A stretch of DNA of 64,000 nucleotides from an uncultured Alsobacter sp. (GTDB lineage: Bacteria; Pseudomonadota; Alphaproteobacteria; Rhizobiales; Beijerinckiaceae). The notes beneath the pieces are model-generated. The model saw nothing but the letters and a program-made list of their open reading frames with translations, was not told where the DNA came from and did not search any database. Of this stretch, positions 10,468-19,450 are shown piece after piece. Within the stretch, counting starts at the first letter, position 1. Each line of letters opens with the position of its first letter. The stretch spans positions 1 to 64,000 of the forward strand of contig NZ_CAMFHB010000023.1 of the NCBI RefSeq assembly GCF_945952055.1. Reading direction: 5' to 3'. A program made the translations under genes and the position numbers.

Positions 10468-12363
10468 TCAGCGCGCAGCGATTTTGGGCAGCAGCGCCAC
10501 GGCCGGCGCCGCGCCATAGGCGGCGGGCACCTGCCGCCCGGCGGTGGTTTCCGACGTGCGGGCCGTGGTGTCGCGCACGACGGCCTCGAGGCTCTTGCCG
10601 GGCGACGACAGCGTTTCCAGCAGCGCCCGCACGAAGGGGCTGTCGAGGCCATCGCCGTCCAGCGCGGTCCTGCCGGGCTGCGTCGAGTGCAGCACCACGC
10701 TGTTGGGCGCGGGCGGCGGTGCCGCCGCCAGGCCGGCATGGATGCGTTGCGGCAGCGCCGCGGGCTGCCGGCCGGCCGCGCCCTGCGAGGCCGCCACCGC
10801 CTGCGCCTCGGCGAAAGGGTCGTCCCGGCAGGCATCGACGATCACCAGGGCCCCGCGTCGCGCGCCGGCCGCGGCGGCGATCAGCTCGCGCAAGGCCAGG
10901 GCCTCGGTCTCCAGGGTCTTGTCGCTGTCCAGCGTCGCATCGGTCGGCACGAGGTAGTTGACCCCGCCCGTCTCGATGCCGTGCCCGGCATAGAACACCA
11001 GCACCACGTCGGCCCGGGCGGCCTCCTCGGCGACAGCGGCGGGCACCCGCCGCAGGTCGGCCCGCGACAGGTTCTCGGCGATCTGGATGGCGTCGAAGCC
11101 CATGTCGGCGAGCGCGTTCGCCATCACCGCCGCGTCGCGCCGCGCATTGGGCAGGCTGGAGAGCTCGGCATAGTCGCTGGAGCCGATCACGAAGGCGACC
11201 CGCCGCAGGCCGTCCGGAGACGCCTTGGGCGGGGCGATGCCGGCATCGAGGCCGCTGCGGAACGGCCCGGCGCCCCGCGGGGCGGGCTGCGACAGCTGCT
11301 TCAGCCGCCAGGACGCGAGGATCCGCTCGAGCAGCTTCGGGGTGGACCGCGTGCCGGCCAGGATGCGCCTGTAGAGGGCCTCGGCCCTGGCCTTGTCGCC
11401 CCGGGCCTCCGCCACCCGCGCCAGGCCGAGGGTCGCCGCCCAGGCTTTCGGCGCCAGCGCCTCGGCCTCGCGGAACAGCGTCTCGGCGGTGTCGGGGTCC
11501 TTCAGCGTGTCGAGCGCCAGCCCGCCCGCCTTCACGAACAGGTCCGCGCTCGCCAGCGCCGCGTCGGCCTTCGGCATGTCGCCGGCTTCGCGCGAGGCCG
11601 CGACGAGGTCGTCGTGGGCCGCCTGCAGGTCGCCGGCCCGCAGTTCCAGCTCCGACTTGCGCATGAGCGCCAGCCGACGGTAGGGCGGCCCCAGCGCCGC
11701 GGCGGCCTCCAGGTCGGGCCGCGCCCGCTGCAGGTGGCCCAGCCGGCGCAGCAGGTCGCCCCGCGCGGACAGCGCCGTGCCGGCCTTCGGGTCGCGCTCC
11801 AGCGCCCGGTCGAGATCGGCCAGGGCGGCCGCCACGTCACCGTTGCGCTCGTGCTCGAGCGCCCGCTGCACGAAGGGCGTCGCGCCCTGCGGGTCGGCCT
11901 TCATGGCGTCGGCGACGTCCGCGCTCGCCTCGGCGCTGCGCCCGATGGTCTGGTTGATCGTCGCGCGCAGGCTCAGCGCGTCGGCCTTCATCGGCCCGTC
12001 GAGCCGGATCGCGGCCTCGGCATCGGCGAGCGCCGGCCGGACCTGCGCCAGGGTCGGCGGCGCATAGGCCACCGAACCGTCGGCCTTGCCGGCCTTCGCC
12101 GCACCCGCCTGCACCACCTGCAGGAAGCGCATCAGGCCGCGATAGAAGGACGCTTTCTGCCGGTCGGCGTCGCCGGCCTGGCCGGCGAGCACCCGCCCGC
12201 AGGCGGTCTCCGCCGCGGCGAGCTGCGCGGGGGTGAGCACCGCCGTCTTCACGCGCTCGTCCGCGCAGGCCGCCATGTCGCCCGCACGCGGAGCCTGCGC
12301 TACCGCCGGCGACGCCATGAGCCCCAGGGCCAGCCCGCATGCGGCGATGCGTCCGCGCGGCAT
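10468..12363 (-). CDS. Exported TPR protein with caspase-fold (peptidase C14) domain
   Basis: The 631-residue protein has a signal peptide (1-22, cleavage near AVAQA), then about 300 residues of TPR-like helical repeats (roughly 100-335). A C-terminal caspase/metacaspase p20 domain (388-515) begins RRVAFVIGSSDYAELSSLPN. The catalytic dyad is intact: His461 in FYAGHGIE and Cys512 in VIVDACRDDPF. The start at 12363 is supported by a GGAGG ribosome site. Bacterial TPR-caspases are commonly exported or envelope-linked; substrates are mostly unknown. The gene is monocistronic, with repeat A copy 3 directly upstream. Confidence 0.88.
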   Translation of the reverse strand: MPRGRIAACGLALGLMASPAVAQAPRAGDMAACADERVKTAVLTPAQLAAAETACGRVLAGQAGDADRQKASFYRGLMRFLQVVQAGAAKAGKADGSVAYAPPTLAQVRPALADAEAAIRLDGPMKADALSLRATINQTIGRSAEASADVADAMKADPQGATPFVQRALEHERNGDVAAALADLDRALERDPKAGTALSARGDLLRRLGHLQRARPDLEAAAALGPPYRRLALMRKSELELRAGDLQAAHDDLVAASREAGDMPKADAALASADLFVKAGGLALDTLKDPDTAETLFREAEALAPKAWAATLGLARVAEARGDKARAEALYRRILAGTRSTPKLLERILASWRLKQLSQPAPRGAGPFRSGLDAGIAPPKASPDGLRRVAFVIGSSDYAELSSLPNARRDAAVMANALADMGFDAIQIAENLSRADLRRVPAAVAEEAARADVVLVFYAGHGIETGGVNYLVPTDATLDSDKTLETEALALRELIAAAAGARRGALVIVDACRDDPFAEAQAVAASQGAAGRQPAALPQRIHAGLAAAPPPAPNSVVLHSTQPGRTALDGDGLDSPFVRALLETLSSPGKSLEAVVRDTTARTSETTAGRQVPAAYGAAPAVALLPKIAAR

Positions 12364-12395
12364 CGAACCTCCTCGCCGTGGTGTTCTACGTTCCG

Positions 12396-12615
12396 GATTC
12401 ACACACCTGACTCGAGGCGTGGCGTAGGGCGCTCTCCCTCCCCTGCAGGGGAGGGTGGCAGCCGCGAAGCGGCTGACGGGTGGGGGCCGCGGCGAAGAAC
12501 GAGGCGGCAAAGCAGGGGCCGGCGCCGGCGTCGTACCAGGTTCTGCGACATCGCCCCCACCCGTCTCGCGCTTCGCGCGATCCACCCTCCCCTCCAGGGG
12601 AGGGAGAACGCGCTC
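12396..12615 (+). repeat. Composite palindromic repeat A, copy 3
   Basis: A 220-bp copy co-linear with 6654-6872. It shows GATTCACACAC, the palindrome at about 12434-12458, the GGCAGCCGCGAAGCGGCTGA stem, a variable middle, CGCCCCCACCCGTCTCGCGC, the TCGCGCTTCGCGCGA stem, and an imperfect second palindrome CCCTCCCCTCCAGGGGAGGG. With flanks it fills the 337-bp spacer between the caspase-fold gene and the gene at 12701. No gene is seen in it. Confidence 0.8.
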
Positions 12616-12700
12616 AACCATCGAGCATCACGTGAGTGCATGCCGAAGGGCGTTCCCGGGGCAGAATGAAGCCAAAGGCGCGCGGCGTCGAGGCCGCGGC

Positions 12701-13258
12701 TCACACCAGGGCGGCCAGGACGGGCGCGGCCAGGACCCGGGCGACGAGCGCCTCCAGGTCCTCGCGTCCGTCCACCCGCAGCACGGGCTCGCGCCTGCGC
12801 CCCAGCCACGCCTCGTGGCGCGCCCGGCTGCGCCCGGAGAAGGCCGGGTCGTCGTAGTGCGACGCCCAATCCCGGAACGCCACGTGGATCTCGTGCATGT
12901 CGCCGCCGGGGTCGATGCGCGTGCCGAACCGCTCGCGCTCGCGGGTATCGAGGCGCTGCAGGCGCAGGAGCGTCGGGGTGTGGACGAAGACGACGAGGCT
13001 GGCCCCGTCCACGAGGGCGTCACCCCAGTCCATCAGCGAGCCGGACAGCACCCAGCCCCCGGCGCGCCGCTCCTGCGCGATCAGCCGCACGCGGTCCTCC
13101 GGCCGGCGCTTGGTGGTGAAGGGCGGATCGGTGGGCATCCAGAAATAGTCGTCGACGTCGAGATGCGGCACCGCGAGCCGCTCCGCCAGGCGGCGGCCCA
13201 GCGTGGTCACGCCCGCGCAGGAGGCGCCCGTGACGTGGAGGCGCGGAGCCGGTGTCAT
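12701..13258 (-). CDS. P-loop adenylate-kinase-like protein
   Basis: The 185-residue protein has an N-terminal P-loop GASCAGVTTLGRRLAERL (11-28), a variant GxxxxGxTT site, followed by PHLDVDDYFW (31-40). This pattern is typical of the AAA_17/AAA_18 shikimate- or adenylate-kinase-like family. It has no signal peptide or membrane segment. The natural substrate is unknown; such proteins are usually small nucleotide or metabolite kinases. It is transcribed away from the Rieske operon, with 261 bp between starts. Confidence 0.75.
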   Translation of the reverse strand: MTPAPRLHVTGASCAGVTTLGRRLAERLAVPHLDVDDYFWMPTDPPFTTKRRPEDRVRLIAQERRAGGWVLSGSLMDWGDALVDGASLVVFVHTPTLLRLQRLDTRERERFGTRIDPGGDMHEIHVAFRDWASHYDDPAFSGRSRARHEAWLGRRREPVLRVDGREDLEALVARVLAAPVLAALV

Positions 13259-13519
13259 CGCTGGGGCCTCCTTCTGGGTGGGTCCTCGCATCACGCTGCG
13301 GCGTGCGCATCGTCCGCGCAGAGTGGGCCACGCCGGCCATGGCGGCAACCGCGCCGACGCCCTCTTCACGGAGCAGGACGGAGCGCGCAACGTGGCGGTC
13401 ACGGCAAAGACATTTGGATGTGATCGGGATTTCGCCCAGGGTCCGGCGACGTCGGACATCGGAGACTCCATGACACGTGCCGGGGACGAGACGGACGGTC
13501 CGGCTGCCGCGAGGATGGA

Positions 13520-13744
13520 ATGCCGGTGACCGCAGCGAGCTGGAGCGACGGGGTGCTGGCCGTGGCGTGGGCCTATGGCGCGGCCGGAGCGCTCGTCGCG
13601 GTGGTGTTCCTCGCCGTCGGCATCGACCGCGTCATGCCCGCGGCGCGCGGGGCCTACGCGTTCCGCCCTCTCCTGCTCCCGGGGCTCGTCATGCTGTGGC
13701 CGGTCGTGCTGTGGCGCTGGTTCCGGCTCAACGGGGAGGCCTGA
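13520..13744 (+). CDS. Small two-helix membrane protein of the FRD-Rieske operon
   Basis: The 74-residue protein has two predicted membrane helices (about 12-36 and 49-67) joined by GIDRVMPAARGAYAFRP. The C-terminus LWPVVLWRWFRLNGEA is Trp/Arg rich. GAGG sits 5 bases before the ATG. It is the first gene of a tightly packed operon (13520-15976) around a ferric-reductase/Rieske fusion. Similar small proteins next to such enzymes suggest a structural subunit, but no function is established from this sequence. Confidence 0.72.
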   Translation: MPVTAASWSDGVLAVAWAYGAAGALVAVVFLAVGIDRVMPAARGAYAFRPLLLPGLVMLWPVVLWRWFRLNGEA

Positions 13745-13748
13745 CACC

Positions 13749-13889
13749 ATGCGCCTGGCCCATCGACGCGCCCACCTGCTCGCCTGGTCGGTTCTCGCGC
13801 TGCTCCTGCCCGCGCTGCTGGCGGCGGCGTGGAGCTTGCGCCCCGGCGTCGTGACGGCACCCACGTCGACGATGATCGCCCCGCCGTGA
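13749..13889 (+). CDS. Very small single-helix membrane protein
   Basis: This 46-residue protein starts 4 bases after the preceding stop. It has a basic N-terminus (MRLAHRRAH), one membrane helix (about 10-30) and a short Thr/Pro tail. It is too short for family recognition. Position and packing between operon members make it a probable small subunit of the membrane complex. The next gene starts 13 bases later. Confidence 0.6.
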   Translation: MRLAHRRAHLLAWSVLALLLPALLAAAWSLRPGVVTAPTSTMIAPP

Positions 13890-13902
13890 GGACAGCACGA
13901 CC

Positions 13903-14958
13903 ATGAGCGTCCGTTTCGTCCCCGTCAGCTGGACCCCTGCCAAGTGGGTGTACGACGCCGTGCTCGTCGCCGGCATCGTGGCCTACCTCGCCGCCTTCTT
14001 TCATTGGGGTGGACGGGCCGCGCCGGGCACATTGGACGACCAGACCCTGTCCATCCGGGCTTACGGAACCTGCGCCTTCATCCTGCTCACGCTGGTGCTG
14101 GCCATCGGGCCGCTGGCGCGCCTGGACCGTCGCTTCCTGCCGTGTCTCTACAACCGCCGGCACTTCGGCGTGCTCGTCTTCTTCATGGCCGCGGCGCACG
14201 CCACGGCCGTGCTCGACTGGTACTTCGCCTACAGCTCCCTCGACCCCTGGCGGGCCCTGCTCGTGGCCGACACGGGGTCGGGACACTGGCAGGGCTTTCC
14301 CTTCATCCCGCTCGGGGTCGCGGCCCTGCTGATCCTGGCGATCATGGCCGCCACCAGCCATGATTTCTGGCTGGCCTTTCTCGGCCCCGCCACGTGGAAG
14401 GCGCTGCACATGGCGGTCTATGCCGCCTATGGGCTCGTCGTGGCGCATGTCGGGCTCGGCGCCTTGCAGGATGCCCGGGAGACCGGCCTCGCGCTGGTCG
14501 TCGCGTCGTCATGCGCCGCCCTGCTGGGCCTGCATCTCGCCGCCGCGCTGTCGAGCCGGCGGCAGGACGAGGCGGCCCTGCGGCCCCCCGCGGACGATGC
14601 GCCCTGGATCGACGTCGGCGCGAGCGACGCCGTGCCCGCGGGCGGGTCGCTGGTGGTGAGGCCGGAGGGCGGAGAGGCCGTCGCGATCTTCAACGATGCC
14701 GGCCGCCTGTCGGCGATCAGCAACCTGTGCGCCCACCAGAACGGCCCGCTCGGCGAGGGCCGGCTCATCGACGGGTGTGTCGTGTGTCCGTGGCACGGCT
14801 ACCAGTACCGCGTGACGGACGGTTGCGCGCCGGCGCCGTTCACGGAGCGGATCGCCACCTACACCCTCGCCATCCGCGACGGCCGCCTCCTGCTCGACCC
14901 GCGAGCCCACCCGCCGGGCACCCCCGTGGCGCCCGTGACCGCCGGAGCGAACGCATGA
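13903..14958 (+). CDS. Ferric-reductase-like transmembrane protein fused to a Rieske [2Fe-2S] domain
   Basis: The 351-residue protein has an N-terminal multi-helix domain (about 15-215) of the ferric-reductase/MsrQ type. RRHFGVLVFFMAAAHA carries H99, and later His residues H153, H169 and H182 are heme-ligand candidates. The C-terminal Rieske domain (about 235-335) has CAH (C276, H278) and CPWH (C295, H298), a complete [2Fe-2S] ligand set. Fusion in one chain implies electron transfer between membrane heme and the iron-sulfur centre. No FAD/NAD-binding reductase domain is present, so the donor or acceptor is elsewhere. The stop overlaps the start of the next gene (ATGA). Confidence 0.88.
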   Translation: MSVRFVPVSWTPAKWVYDAVLVAGIVAYLAAFFHWGGRAAPGTLDDQTLSIRAYGTCAFILLTLVLAIGPLARLDRRFLPCLYNRRHFGVLVFFMAAAHATAVLDWYFAYSSLDPWRALLVADTGSGHWQGFPFIPLGVAALLILAIMAATSHDFWLAFLGPATWKALHMAVYAAYGLVVAHVGLGALQDARETGLALVVASSCAALLGLHLAAALSSRRQDEAALRPPADDAPWIDVGASDAVPAGGSLVVRPEGGEAVAIFNDAGRLSAISNLCAHQNGPLGEGRLIDGCVVCPWHGYQYRVTDGCAPAPFTERIATYTLAIRDGRLLLDPRAHPPGTPVAPVTAGANA

Positions 14959-15737
14959 GCGTGCCTGGCGAGCGGGAGCCCTTCTTCATCGGCTGGAGCC
15001 GTTCCGTGCCGCCGTCCCTGCTGCGGTTCTGCGGCGCGGTGGCCCTGGTGCTTCTGGCCCTTCTCGCCGGCCTGGGGCTGCTGCTCGGGCGGACGGTCGA
15101 GGATCCCGCGGCGCGCCTGCTCGCCTTCGCGCCGGCGGTGGAGGTGCGGCCGGAGCCCTGGGCGGCGGACCGCAGCCTGAAGGGCATCGTCACCGCCGAC
15201 CCCTACCCGGTCCTGCACCTGGCGCCGGACGCCGCGATGCCGTTCGGCCGGGCGGTGCTGCTGGTCGGCGACGGCAAGCGCGGGGCGGACGTCGCGGCCT
15301 CGACCACCCCCGTCGAGGTCTCGGGCGGGCTGCTGCGGCGCGGCGACGTCGCCATGCTGGTCCTCGACGGCCCGCCCCGTCCCGTGGCGGGCGAGCCTGC
15401 CCGGGAGGCGCCGGCGGTGCAGCGGCTGGGACGGTGGCGCGTGGCGGGCGAGATCTGCGACGGCAAGTGCTACGCCGGCGGCATGCGGCCCGGTTCCGGG
15501 CTGTCGCACCGGGCCTGCGCCGAGCTCTGCCTGCTCGGCGACGTGCCCGCCATCTTCGTCGCGGCGATGCCCGTGGCGGGCCGCCAGTTCCTGGTGCTGG
15601 CGGCGCAGGACGGCGGCAAGCCGCCGCCCGCGCTGCTGGACCTCACCGCCCTGCCCGTCGAGCTCGAGGGCGAGGTCGAGCGGCGGGGCGACATGCTGAT
15701 CTTCAAGGTCGATATGCGCCATGCGAGGCTGCTGTGA
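14955..15737 (+). CDS. Membrane-anchored Cys/His-motif protein of the FRD-Rieske operon
   Basis: The 260-residue protein has one N-terminal membrane helix (about 24-46), then a domain probably outside the cytoplasm. The striking signature is GEICDGKCY (165-173) followed by HRACAELCLLGDVPAIF (185-201), giving C168, C172, H185, C188 and C192. This is a possible metal or cofactor site or redox-active cysteine cluster. I recall similar GE-x-x-D-x-K-C-[YF] ... HRACA-x-x-C-[IL] sequences in proteins next to Rieske or cytochrome genes, but no function is known to me. It overlaps its neighbours by 4 bases on both sides, so it is translationally coupled. Confidence 0.75.
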   Translation: MSVPGEREPFFIGWSRSVPPSLLRFCGAVALVLLALLAGLGLLLGRTVEDPAARLLAFAPAVEVRPEPWAADRSLKGIVTADPYPVLHLAPDAAMPFGRAVLLVGDGKRGADVAASTTPVEVSGGLLRRGDVAMLVLDGPPRPVAGEPAREAPAVQRLGRWRVAGEICDGKCYAGGMRPGSGLSHRACAELCLLGDVPAIFVAAMPVAGRQFLVLAAQDGGKPPPALLDLTALPVELEGEVERRGDMLIFKVDMRHARLL

Positions 15738-15976
15738 CCCGGCACGGAACCGGCCCGCGCGGCCTCGCCTGGCCTCTGCTGGCCACCGCGGTCGCCGTCC
15801 TCGTGGCGTTCGCCGCCTGGAGGGGGGCGGCGATGCTGCTCGACGCCACCGGCCTCGAACCCCTGCGTCCGCTCGCCCCCGTCCTGGCCATCGCGCTGGC
15901 GCTGACGGCGCTGCAGGCCGCATGGGACAGGATCGAGGCCATCGTTCTTTCCACGTCCCGCCGCGGACGACCGTGA
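15734..15976 (+). CDS. Small two-helix membrane protein, last membrane gene of the FRD-Rieske operon
   Basis: This 80-residue protein starts at GTG 15734, which overlaps the previous stop (GTGA). Two membrane helices lie at about 12-30 and 46-64. I do not recognise the family. It resembles the first operon protein only in size and helix number. Tight coupling makes it a probable subunit. Confidence 0.62.
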   Translation: MTRHGTGPRGLAWPLLATAVAVLVAFAAWRGAAMLLDATGLEPLRPLAPVLAIALALTALQAAWDRIEAIVLSTSRRGRP

Positions 15977-15990
15977 CAAGGAAGCAAGAC

Positions 15991-16692
15991 ATGACCAGCC
16001 CCAGCGTCGTGATGGTGACCGGTGCCTCGGGAAATCTCGGACGCGCGGTTCTCGGCGAACTCGCGCAGCGCCCCGTCCGCATCGTCGCGGTAGACCGCGA
16101 GCATGCGGCTCTCGAGGCCGCGCTGTCGGGGGCCGGAGAGGGACACGCGCTGCATGCCGGCGTCGACCTGACCGACGCCGGGGCGGTGGCCACCGTCATC
16201 GAGGACACCCTGAAGGCGTACGGGCGCATCGACGGGGTCGTCCACACCGTCGGGGGCTTCGCCTACGCATCGCTCGCCGACAGCGACGCCGCGCTCTTCG
16301 AACGCATGTTCCGCCTCAACGTCGTGACCACGGTGAACGTCGTGCGCGCGGCGATGGCGCCCATGCGCGCGGCCAGGCGGGGCAGCATCGTGGCCGTCGC
16401 CGCGGGAGCGGCCGTCAAGGCGCCGGCCGGCCTGGCCGCCTATGCGGCGGCGAAGGCCGGGGTGCTGCGCCTCATGGAAAGCTTCGCGGACGAGGCGAAG
16501 GCCGACGCCGTGCGCATCAACTGCGTGCTGCCCAGCATCATCGACACGCCCCAGAACCGCGCGGACATGCCGGATGCCGACCCTGCCCGCTGGGTCCGGC
16601 CGGAGAAACTCGCCTCCGTGATCGGCTTCCTCCTCAGCGACGCGGCATCGGACGTCACCGGGGCGGCCATTTCGGTACCGGGGCGGGTGTGA
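15991..16692 (+). CDS. Short-chain dehydrogenase/reductase-like protein lacking the catalytic Ser
   Basis: The 233-residue protein has an SDR Rossmann fold: GASGNLGRA (11-19) binds NAD(P), and N110, Y151 and K155 (YAAAK) match the active site. The catalytic Ser, expected 13 residues before the Tyr, is Ala138 (VAVAAGAAV). The protein may therefore be non-catalytic or use a variant mechanism. It begins 14 bases after the FRD-Rieske operon and is probably its last gene, although a stand-alone role is possible. It is soluble. Confidence 0.82.
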   Translation: MTSPSVVMVTGASGNLGRAVLGELAQRPVRIVAVDREHAALEAALSGAGEGHALHAGVDLTDAGAVATVIEDTLKAYGRIDGVVHTVGGFAYASLADSDAALFERMFRLNVVTTVNVVRAAMAPMRAARRGSIVAVAAGAAVKAPAGLAAYAAAKAGVLRLMESFADEAKADAVRINCVLPSIIDTPQNRADMPDADPARWVRPEKLASVIGFLLSDAASDVTGAAISVPGRV

Positions 16693-16716
16693 GGCAACGT
16701 CGGAAAATGACGATCG

Positions 16717-17949
16717 TCAACTGCGCTTCGCAGGCCCGGCGGCGATGAGCCAGTTCAGGGCGGACGCGACGGCGAGGTAGATGGCGCAGCCGATGGCCAG
16801 GCTCGCCAACCCCACCTTCGCGTCGAGGACGAAGCCGAAAAGCCCCGGCGTGGAGGCCGAGCCGACGACGCCGATGGCGCCGGCGAGCGCCCGGATCGTG
16901 CCCAGCCGCTCCGTGCCGTAGAGCTCGGCCAGCACCGCCGGCACGACCACGCCATTGGCGGCGGAGCTCACGCCGAGCAGCGCGAAGAAGACGATGGGAT
17001 GCGGCGGGCCGTCCGGCGACATCATCGTCAGCGCCGCGATGGCCAGGAACACGAGGTGGAACCGGCACACGCGCACGGCGCGGAAGCGGTCGACCAGCCA
17101 GCCGATCACCATGTTGGTGCAGATGGCGGCCCCGGCATAGGCGGGAATGCCGAAGGCCAGCGCCTCCAGGCTCCAGCCGAAGATGTCGGCGAGCAGGCGC
17201 TGGTGGAAGAAGATGCCGGTGACGATGGCGCTCGGCGCGATCATCGACGGGATGAAGACGAGGAAGCGCCAGTCCTTCAGCACGTCGCGCCGGCCGATGA
17301 GCTTCACGGCCGGGGCCGGCGCGGCATCGGGCGCGGGGGCGGCGCCGGCGGCCGCCATGCGGCGGGCGCGGCGGTCGGCGAGCACCGTGGTGGTGAGGAC
17401 CACCGCCAGCACCGAAAACAGCACCAGCGCCGCGATGCGCCACTGGAACACCCAGCCCCAGGTCGCGATGACGAGCAGCACGAGGCCGGGCAGCAGGAAC
17501 TCGCCGCTGGAAAAGCCCAGCGCGACGATGCTCACCGCCCGTCCGCGGATGCCCTGGGGCAGCCGGGCGGCGGCGGTGACGGCGGCGTGCGCGATCATGC
17601 CCTGCCCGAAGAAGCGCAGGCCGAACAGGCACAGGCCGACCACCACGACGCTGGGCGCCAGCGACAGGCCCAGCGCGCAGAAGCCCAGCCCCGCCAGCGC
17701 CACGCCGGCATAGGCACGCGTCGACACCCGGTCGAGCACGCCGCCCGCCCAGATCATGATGAGGCCCGAGCACAGCGTCGCCAGCGAGTAGATGGAGCCG
17801 AACGCGCCGTTGGAGAGGCCGAAGGTGGCCCGGAGGTCCGGCCCAGACAGCGAGATGAAGAAGGTCTGCCCCACCGAGGAGAGGAACCCCAGGCCGTAAC
17901 CCAGCAGGACGATGCCGCCATGCTGGCGCAGAAGGTGGCGGTAGCTCAT
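16717..17949 (-). CDS. Major facilitator superfamily transporter
   Basis: This 410-residue membrane protein has twelve predicted helices and a central cytoplasmic loop rich in Ala/Pro (about 205-225). The loop GGVLDRVSTRA matches the MFS G-x-x-x-D-R-x-x-x-R pattern between helices 2 and 3. The start at 17949 gives an N-terminus directly before helix 1; longer frames are Pro-rich and unlikely. The substrate is unknown. It is convergent with the SDR gene. Confidence 0.88.
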   Translation of the reverse strand: MSYRHLLRQHGGIVLLGYGLGFLSSVGQTFFISLSGPDLRATFGLSNGAFGSIYSLATLCSGLIMIWAGGVLDRVSTRAYAGVALAGLGFCALGLSLAPSVVVVGLCLFGLRFFGQGMIAHAAVTAAARLPQGIRGRAVSIVALGFSSGEFLLPGLVLLVIATWGWVFQWRIAALVLFSVLAVVLTTTVLADRRARRMAAAGAAPAPDAAPAPAVKLIGRRDVLKDWRFLVFIPSMIAPSAIVTGIFFHQRLLADIFGWSLEALAFGIPAYAGAAICTNMVIGWLVDRFRAVRVCRFHLVFLAIAALTMMSPDGPPHPIVFFALLGVSSAANGVVVPAVLAELYGTERLGTIRALAGAIGVVGSASTPGLFGFVLDAKVGLASLAIGCAIYLAVASALNWLIAAGPAKRS

Positions 17950-18110
17950 CGCGGCAGGGGAAACGGGCGGCGGGACGGGCGGGCTCCCCCACCATAGCCC
18001 AATCCGTGGGCGGCTCACCTGCCAATTGCCGGATATTTGCGCGTGTGCGCCTTGCGTCGGGCGCATGAGGCAGGGGGCGGAGGGTTGCCTCTTCCACGCT
18101 CCCACCTTTC

Positions 18111-18209
18111 CGTCATGGCCGGGCTTGGCCCGGCCACCCACGACTTGGGCGCGGTCCCGGCAAAGTCGTGGATGGCCGGGCCAAGCCCGGCCAGGACGGC
18201 TGAGAGGGG
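18111..18209. repeat. Palindromic repeat B, copy 2
   Basis: Inverted repeat with outer arms CGTCATGGCCGGGCTTGGCC and GGCCGGGCCAAGCCCGGCCA, inner arms CCACGACTT and AAGTCGTGG, ending GACGGCTGAGAGGG. It lies between the MFS start and the end of the flavin-reductase-like gene. Confidence 0.85.
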
Positions 18210-18237
18210 GCGGCGTGTGACCTGGCGCAGCGCGCCC

Positions 18238-18846
18238 TCACGCCCGCGTCGGGCGCTCCAACGCGAAGGCGCTGTCCACCACCGCGTAGTCGGCGTAGCC
18301 GCAGCGGGCGATGGGCCTGGCCTTGAGCATGTCGAAGCGGCCCTCGGGGGTGATGTAGGCGTCGTCGATGAACACGCCGACCACCTGGCCGAGCACCAGG
18401 TGCGTGTCCATGGGCTCGCCCTGGTGGGTGCTGAGCTGCACGACCTGCACGAGCTTGCACTCCAGCGCCGCCGCGACGCCCTTGACGCGCGGGGGCTTCA
18501 CCAGGCGCGAGGGCTCCTGCTCCAGGCGGGCGTGCTCGAACTCGGACTTGCCGCGCGCGAGCGGCGCCGAGGTGGCGTTCATGGCGTCGCGCAGGTCCCA
18601 GGTCGCGAGGTTGCAGACGAACTCGCCCGTCTCCTCGACGAAGGTGACGCTGTCCTTCCGGCCCTCGCTGGAGAAGCCGACGATGGGCGGGCGCGAGGAG
18701 AAGGCGTTGAAGAAGCTGTAGGGCGCGAGGTTGAGCTCGCCGGCCTTGTTCAGCGACGAGATCCAGCCGATGGGCCGCGGGGCGACGATGGCCTTCAGCG
18801 GATCGTGCGGCAGGCCGTGGCCGTAGGTGACGGTGTCGTAGAACAT
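18238..18846 (-). CDS. Flavin reductase-like FMN-binding split-barrel protein
   Basis: The 202-residue protein belongs to the flavin-reductase-like/DIM6 group: IVAPRPIGWISSLNKAGELNLAPYS is the characteristic FMN-binding opening (PRPIGWISS at about 23-31), with SFFNAFSSRPPIVGFSS following. It probably binds FMN and acts as a flavin reductase or as the reductase partner of an oxygenase. The nitroreductase gene lies 16 bp upstream on the same strand, so the two flavoproteins form an operon. Confidence 0.85.
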   Translation of the reverse strand: MFYDTVTYGHGLPHDPLKAIVAPRPIGWISSLNKAGELNLAPYSFFNAFSSRPPIVGFSSEGRKDSVTFVEETGEFVCNLATWDLRDAMNATSAPLARGKSEFEHARLEQEPSRLVKPPRVKGVAAALECKLVQVVQLSTHQGEPMDTHLVLGQVVGVFIDDAYITPEGRFDMLKARPIARCGYADYAVVDSAFALERPTRA

Positions 18847-18862
18847 CGGGGGATCTCCGGTC

Positions 18863-19450
18863 TCAGGCCCAGCGCGTGACGATGTCGGCCATCACCGGCC
18901 GGACGCGATCCTCGGGGCGCTCGCCCCGGCCGATGTGGACGAAGCCGGCGACCACCTCGGTCTCGGCGAGGCCGAAGGCGGTCATGAAGGCCCGGTCATA
19001 GGCCATCCACTCGGTGAGCCAGGCGGTGACGAAGCCCATGGCCACGGCGGCCGTGGTCAGCGCCATGCACACAGCGCCGGCCGAGAGCTGCTGCTCCCAC
19101 ACGGGGATCTTGGGGTGCTGCGCGGCGCGGCTCACCACCGCCACCACCACGGGCGCGCGGGAGAAGCGGTTGCGCTCCAGCGCCACGCGCTCGGCATCCG
19201 CGCCGGGGTTGTTCGTCACGAAGATGTCGCCGGCGATGGCGCCCAGCCGGTCGCGGGCCGCGCCTTCCACGATCACGAAACGCCAGGGCGCGAGCTTGCC
19301 GTGGTCGGGCACGCGCGCGGCGATGGCCAGCATCGCCTCGAGCTCGGCCGCGGTCGGGCCGGGTCCGGTCATCAGGTGCGGCGCCAGGGACCGGCGCGTG
19401 CGCAGAAGCTCGATCGTGGCGGGCGAAGTCCAGGCGGAGGTGTCGGTCAT
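18863..19450 (-). CDS. Nitroreductase-family flavoprotein
   Basis: The 195-residue protein is of the small YdjA-like nitroreductase type. RTRRSLAPHLMTGPGPT (17-33) is the FMN phosphate/ribityl site, PDHGKLAPWRFVIVEG (48-63) the active-site strand, and the C-terminal HIGRGERPEDR the usual FMN-contact tail. It is expected to reduce nitro or quinone compounds with NAD(P)H. It is first in an operon with the FMN split-barrel gene. Confidence 0.88.
   Translation of the reverse strand: MTDTSAWTSPATIELLRTRRSLAPHLMTGPGPTAAELEAMLAIAARVPDHGKLAPWRFVIVEGAARDRLGAIAGDIFVTNNPGADAERVALERNRFSRAPVVVAVVSRAAQHPKIPVWEQQLSAGAVCMALTTAAVAMGFVTAWLTEWMAYDRAFMTAFGLAETEVVAGFVHIGRGERPEDRVRPVMADIVTRWA

Follow-up and report, generated by a model that had tools for sequence, protein, structure and literature searches.

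The FRD (ferric reductase) family moves electrons from the cytosol to the outside of the cell (PMC11031084), and the described proteins closest to the system considered here are MsrQ/YedZ, the haem subunit of MsrPQ, with its six-transmembrane (TM) FRD core, and the bacterial NOX/FRE proteins, in which an FRD haem domain serving transmembrane electron flow is joined to C-terminal FAD-/NADPH-binding domains. An FRD combined with a Rieske domain has, in the open-licence literature that we searched, a single printed mention, in a survey of the family from 2013 (Zhang et al. 2013, PMC3591440), as ‘model M4’; the legend to that model adds an FMN module, and the accompanying passages give no operon, partner or function for it. 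In the 64,000-nucleotide stretch of DNA analysed here (‘the window’; positions 1 to 64,000 of contig NZ_CAMFHB010000023.1, from an uncultured Alsobacter sp.) we find such a combination at the centre of five close-packed + strand genes (13520–15976), whose translated products are 74, 46, 351, 260 and 80 amino acids (aa) long. The operon is real and more widely conserved than a preliminary description of this DNA had claimed. It probably belongs to a unit of six genes, for which two principal subtypes can be told apart by their partners; we read the system as a variant form of transmembrane electron transfer by FRD proteins, one whose candidate acceptor domain is undescribed.

Translation of the open reading frames confirms the packing already described, with intergenic gaps of 4 bp and 13 bp plus two 4-base overlaps. 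We label the proteins P0001, P0002, P0003 and P0004 in order of gene, the 46-aa protein lying between P0001 and P0002. The 351-aa P0002 (13903..14958, +) is, by Pfam, alignment and structure model, a six-TM FRD/MsrQ-like haem protein carrying a C-terminal Rieske domain of the dioxygenase-ferredoxin type: it scores 42.3 bits against Ferric_reduct (PF01794; cut-off 28) and 54.6 bits against Rieske (PF00355; cut-off 20.3), and its Pfam matches include neither a flavin nor an NAD(P) domain, in support of the earlier picture of a fused chain that lacks a flavin reductase domain. The curated cut-off for PF01794 is exceeded, histidines lie in both TM3 and TM5, and six TM helices are seen in the structure model; a set of features that places P0002 within the FRD superfamily. 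The Rieske part is closest to the dioxygenase ferredoxins, both by sequence and by fold.

The predicted haem-ligand set consists of H99 in TM3 (codon 14197..14199, +) together with H169 and H182 in TM5, whilst the Rieske site reads C276-x-H278 ... C295-x2-H298 (14728..14796, +). All seven residues, as picked out in the preliminary description, are identical in 81/81 aligned rows (83 loci, defined below, plus the window, less three rows that fall below 70% of the query length), as are R85, R86, H87 and H153, with H211 identical in 80/81; H87, H153 and H211 had not been listed before. H99 aligns by spacing with what we take to be H91 of MsrQ (E. coli numbering). By eye, the spacing of the RR-x-[LF]-G-x9-H and H-x12-H motifs is the same in P0002 as in the separate MsrQ-like protein of its own genome, which is encoded on another contig (C25) beside an MsrP-like protein, away from the operon (L001; G000:C25:87142; also by eye).

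P0002 therefore resembles MsrQ/YedZ in its six-TM FRD core, in its three identically spaced histidines and in a likely cytosol-to-periplasm direction, and differs in its fused Rieske domain and in having no adjacent MsrP that we can see; no MsrP molybdoenzyme was recognised by eye among the open reading frames (ORFs) at 11000–19000, not every one of which was run against Pfam. Identity with MsrQ itself can be set aside, since the score for the NCBIfam model NF003831, 40.7 bits, falls well short of the 130 required. P0002 shares the FRD haem domain of the bacterial NOX/FRE proteins; it is not one of them, having a Rieske domain where they have FAD-/NADPH-binding domains and, in place of their four histidines (H-x13-H in TM3, H-x12-H in TM5), an invariant arginine, R85, 14 residues before H99. 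MamZ is likewise rejected (NF040998; 48.6 bits against a cut-off of 650, over the FRD part only), and so is cytochrome bc1/b6f, the Rieske domain of P0002 being nearest to the dioxygenase ferredoxins and its membrane part being an FRD.

When species genomes of bacteria and archaea were scanned, 262 stretches were found to code for relatives of P0003, the 260-aa product of the gene that follows; the best 80, with three annotated Rhizobium plasmid loci, form the 83 loci counted throughout, a set that leans toward window-like proteins, in which several loci end near a contig end, and from whose counts L088 and loci fetched later are left out. Two alignments, A1 and A2 (63 and 48 sequences, window included), were drawn from sets of 76 and 71 references, from which six near-identical copies and rows of unusual length had already been excluded. 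By class label, 76 of the best 80 are alphaproteobacterial and two carry no class (Bosea sp. and ‘Alpha proteobacterium’); the remaining two, labelled Solirubrobacterales and Nitrosovibrio, may be mislabelled bins.

Matches to P0002 and P0003 are present together in 83/83 loci, separated by -7 to +14 bp in 78/83, and both gene order and spacing persist in relatives only 37–53% identical in P0003, which puts their conservation far beyond chance. The gene order suggested as a check within the Hyphomicrobiales is indeed conserved there, and its spread is wider, reaching the Rhodobacterales, Acetobacterales and Rhodospirillales. At two loci, L015 (8747–10750) and L053 (8930–10741; the isolate Falsiroseomonas tokyonensis), P0002 and P0003 form one open frame without a stop, the Rieske end of P0002 continuing into the N-terminus of P0003; fusions that argue both for direct contact between the two proteins and for a location of the P0002 C-terminus and the P0003 N-terminus on the same side of the membrane. 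Across a phylum sample of 398 genomes (for which the best 3–6 candidates per genome were scored, such that weak matches may escape) full-length P0002 and full-length P0003 occur in the same seven, with weaker, partial matches to P0003 in three more and to P0002 in eight more. The genes hence pass the test of co-conservation on which the preliminary description had staked its claim: seven shared genomes, a spacing kept in 78/83 loci and a pair that is twice a single frame.

The distribution is nonetheless patchy, as full-length P0003 is found in the window's own genome alone among its 40 nearest relatives (own genome included); the 39 without it include three of the same genus, an absence that is the sole hint that this genome acquired the block by transfer. 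The composition of the operon block is not unusual. A plasmid search with P0002 returned 87 records, five covering 80% of the query; among the 40 matches listed, 37 are not full length and match the Rieske part only.

P0003 (14955..15737, +) has an N-terminal TM anchor (residues 20–47) followed by two small beta (OB-like) domains that we would place in the periplasm. Its structure model (mean pLDDT 88) shows a long helix over residues 20–47 and then beta-rich domains, whose matches in the PDB are weak and OB-like. Sequence searches of Pfam, NCBIfam and the PDB give nothing noteworthy: the best Pfam E-value across 63 members is 0.014, and matches to insect defensins (E 1.3–3.1) are taken as chance. 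What distinguishes the protein is a Cys/His/Met motif, GEICDGKCYAGGM...H-x2-CA-x2-C (15447..15530, +), comprising C168, C172, M177, H185, C188 and C192 and invariant in 84/84 and in 63/63 sequences. The four cysteines and the histidine had been named previously, and each is identical in all 84 rows; to these we add M177 (84/84), and note that H185 is the sole invariant histidine of P0003.

Profile searches with P0003 also recover shorter proteins (ORFs of 121–194 aa) that match its Cys domain only. Eight such loci (L108–L115) account for all partial matches from the P0003 scans of the 398 genomes and of the nearest relatives, and in 8/8 the short Cys-domain protein (A) is followed by a second Cys-rich protein (B) and then by an SCO1-like protein, the one run against Pfam matching SCO1-SenC at 150.7 bits. 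Profile comparison of the P0003 Cys domain with protein A gives a probability of 97 (E 1e-10, 30% identity); the equivalents of C172, M177, H185, C188 and C192 are kept in 8/8, and C168 is absent. These presumably periplasmic proteins further differ from P0003 in lacking its first domain, and their trio of genes contains no FRD-Rieske gene. The A and B proteins that we ran (from L109 and L115) reach no Pfam family above cut-off, a plasmid search with protein A gave no match, and the idea that the first beta domain of P0003 corresponds to protein B was dropped at a profile-comparison probability of 8%.

SCO1 serves the CuA site as a chaperone, and the trio may itself be a copper-handling module. 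Because the Cys domain of P0003 is homologous to proteins encoded beside SCO1, a putative copper site in P0003 is a reasonable idea. The ligands of CuA are two Cys, two His and one Met (PMC6696091); C188-x3-C192 with M177 and H185 fits this as motif resemblance only, whilst the second His has no counterpart, P0003 having one invariant His; where CuA has a cupredoxin fold, the fold matches of P0003 are weak and OB-like.

The genes found beside the complex supply candidates for the other end of an electron path. Clustering of neighbours identifies two enzymes tagged with an N-terminal Rieske domain: ‘Rieske-GltB’, a Glu_synthase (FMN) enzyme, in 26/83 loci, and ‘Rieske-ThDP’, a pyruvate-oxidase-like ThDP enzyme, in 17/83, with either in 32/83. 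For the two Rieske-ThDP proteins scanned, the best NCBIfam model is a pyruvate oxidase, although their scores of 384 and 396 bits do not reach its cut-off of 742. Four of the 398 genomes contain Rieske-ThDP at E<=1e-150, all among the seven with the complex and adjoining it, and Rieske-GltB is found in those same four; some of the Rieske-GltB rows from this sample are interrupted by a stop (G124, G248). A comparable architecture is known from the type 5 CISD proteins (L137; PMC3174974), where the same glutamate-synthase FMN domain bears small N-terminal [2Fe-2S] domains, in that case a CDGSH pair where the operon's partner enzyme has its Rieske domain.

In the window this position is taken by a gene for a short-chain dehydrogenase (SDR; FabG-like, 233 aa; 15991..16692, +), preceded by AAGGAAG and starting 14 bp after P0004, for which reason the transcription unit probably comprises six genes; the five described previously stand, and the unit is larger than was drawn. 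An adjacent SDR of the window type is found in 24/83 loci and together with a Rieske enzyme in 0/83 (Fisher 6e-7, phylogeny ignored); after collapsing at 70% identity in P0003, 0/59 groups have both (Fisher 8e-4). With further SDR queries (E<=1e-5) an adjacent SDR of any kind is seen in 28/83 loci, and three of the 83 (L032, L077, L079) carry an SDR of a different kind along with a Rieske enzyme (Fisher 2.5e-4, phylogeny ignored), so that strict exclusion holds for window-like SDRs only. In the tree (78 rows) each of the two partner types reappears in branches that are separate from one another. As neither Rieske-GltB nor Rieske-ThDP was found in the window genome, it belongs to the SDR subtype.

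Taken together, we judge it somewhat better than an even chance that the operon encodes a transmembrane electron conduit, running from Rieske donors through the Rieske domain and haem b of P0002 to the periplasmic Cys/His/Met site of P0003. The preliminary description of a membrane electron-transfer complex without an assigned function is supported to this extent; that the products associate physically in a single complex, and that electrons pass through it, is what we infer. Cytosolic redox enzymes would pass electrons into the cytosolic Rieske [2Fe-2S] domain; these would cross the membrane via haem b of the FRD, held by H99/H182 near the outer face, with a second haem site possible near H87/H169, and would end at the Cys/His/Met centre in the C-terminal domain of P0003, where they may be taken up by a reducible disulfide or by a redox metal, with copper the favoured candidate. 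The three small proteins (P0001, P0004 and the one of 46 aa) would serve as structural subunits. The likely donors, available in 32/83 loci, would be the Rieske-tagged glutamate-synthase-like and pyruvate-oxidase-like enzymes; in the window's subtype the SDR, which fills their slot in the operon, may make or recycle a substrate without needing to touch the ‘wire’. Outward flow is favoured because the FRD family, as described, runs outward (PMC11031084). The proposed topology follows from homology to MsrQ, from the six-helix model and from the natural fusions, which need the P0002 C-terminus and the P0003 N-terminus on one side; both termini of P0002 would be cytosolic, going by the six-TM model and the spacing of the RR-x-[LF]-G-x9-H motif.

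Several observations weigh against such a conduit. The positive-inside signal is weak in the loops of P0002. The cytosol-proximal haem ligand of NOX (the His101 equivalent) is Arg85 in P0002, making the second haem uncertain; short FRD forms are reported to have arginine at the first-His position of NOX (PMC3591440), and for these two reasons P0002 likely holds one haem and might hold a second. Foldseek gives no match for P0003 at E<=0.001. On the donor side, 27/83 loci have neither a Rieske enzyme nor a window-type SDR, and Rieske-GltB occurs without the complex in five genomes at full length and in two as fragments, all seven from one other family. Rieske-like stretches, matched by the Rieske part of P0002, are present in genes annotated as encoding thiamine pyrophosphate-binding proteins on plasmids of Halorubrum (H36) and Mycobacteroides (H42), a hint that Rieske-ThDP-like fusions may exist in other settings too. 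SDRs, moreover, are hydride-transferring enzymes that would not ordinarily be expected to reduce a Rieske centre, which leaves the window's own subtype without an evident donor. Rieske-glutamate-synthase fusions without the FRD complex are seen at L133–L136 (family f38 of the phylum sample), where comparison of the stretches reveals no other clearly common neighbour.

The alternative that survives best, though we consider it unlikely, is that P0003 is a periplasmic thiol reductase, the complex powering disulfide reduction or methionine-type repair in the periplasm, tasks for which DsbD and MsrPQ use different routes. It draws on the two C-x3-C pairs of P0003 (C168/C172 and C188/C192), in which all four cysteines are invariant; on the presence there of C168, absent from the eight SCO-operon homologues; on a DsbD_TM-domain gene upstream in one locus (L005); and on the precedent of MsrQ, an FRD protein that feeds a repair enzyme (PMC11031084). 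M177 and H185 are, however, equally invariant and common to the SCO-operon proteins, pointing instead to metal ligation, and no thioredoxin fold is among the listed PDB matches of the P0003 model.

Less probable again is a NOX-like oxidase that acts outside the cell on O2 or on complexed Fe3+/Cu2+, and for which P0003 and the small proteins would do no more than cap or assemble the haem protein. Reduction of O2 or of metals is indeed what NOX and FRE, both of them FRD proteins, carry out, and STEAP likewise (PMC3591440), but P0002 lacks their FAD/NADPH domain and the P0003 motif is conserved more strictly than a role as a cap requires.

Electrons might also run the other way, entering at P0003 from a periplasmic reductant and passing inward to Rieske-GltB or Rieske-ThDP for synthesis (glutamate-synthase-like or carboxylating), perhaps driven by an ion gradient; a scheme that we regard as improbable. 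Glutamate synthases do consume electrons, and a Na+/H+-exchanger-family gene is found in 7/83 loci, mostly just before Rieske-GltB. Against this, the best model for the ThDP proteins, albeit below cut-off, is pyruvate oxidase, and such oxidases release electrons; the FRD proteins described, too, run outward (PMC11031084). A further reading, in which common regulation (a stress island) keeps the genes side by side and their products form no single complex, is very improbable, for although the patchy distribution and the 39 relatives without full-length P0003 would suit it, the same order and overlaps recur across four orders, P0002 and P0003 have an identical phyletic set, and the two natural fusions lower it slightly further.

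The remaining genes of the operon are small. P0001 (13520..13744, +; 74 aa) has two predicted TM helices and an upstream homologue in 77/83 loci (76/83 at a stricter cut-off), with G23, F30, R49, P54, W60, P61 and R66 conserved over 75 rows. The 46-aa protein (13749..13889, +), with one TM helix, has a tblastn match in 28/83 loci (E<=0.1) and equates to the C-terminal third of a protein that is fused elsewhere: in 29/77 relatives the 74-aa and 46-aa genes are a single frame, mostly of 110–130 aa, a count in which rows L038 and L039 are mis-started (9 aa). P0004 (15734..15976, +; 80 aa, GTG start, two predicted TM helices) is fast-evolving and recognised by position rather than sequence; its sequence is matched in 1/83 loci, whilst an ORF of 45–130 aa with at least one hydrophobic segment lies directly 3' of P0003 in 71/82, a count made without a shuffled control and including one ORF, at L061, that looks spurious.

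Further out, dispersed repeats flank the operon block (12391–12651 and 18110–18215), each with more than 20 copies in the genome, and a palindromic core, TGGCCGGGCTTGGCCCGGCCA, occurs at four places in the window. A protein that combines a caspase domain (Peptidase_C14) and TPR repeats (10468–12240, - strand) is encoded divergently from the operon; TPR proteins are also found near the complex in Rhizobium loci. Other neighbours, among them patatin, 3-hydroxybutyrate dehydrogenase, a CoA transferase, OpgC and CopD, are seen in some lineages only and were not used.

As to whether the complex has already been characterised, none of P0001, the 46-aa protein, P0003 and P0004 reaches a Pfam or NCBIfam cut-off, and the open-licence literature yielded no published description of the system, subscription papers lying outside that search. 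A 2004 paper on the YedZ family by von Rozycki et al., whose title as cited mentions fusion both to transporters and to electron carriers, may include fusions of this kind among those it describes.

More tentatively, the operon may represent a modular, respiratory-type complex, in which cytosolic, Rieske-tagged oxidoreductases plug into a Rieske-haem b hub that reduces an undescribed periplasmic Cys4-His-Met copper domain, of a family also found with SCO1 chaperones. With the Rieske-tagged enzymes as candidate donors and P0003 as candidate acceptor, donor, wire and acceptor each become testable singly; and the system would give access to a family of Cys/His/Met domains in the periplasm that is connected with SCO1.

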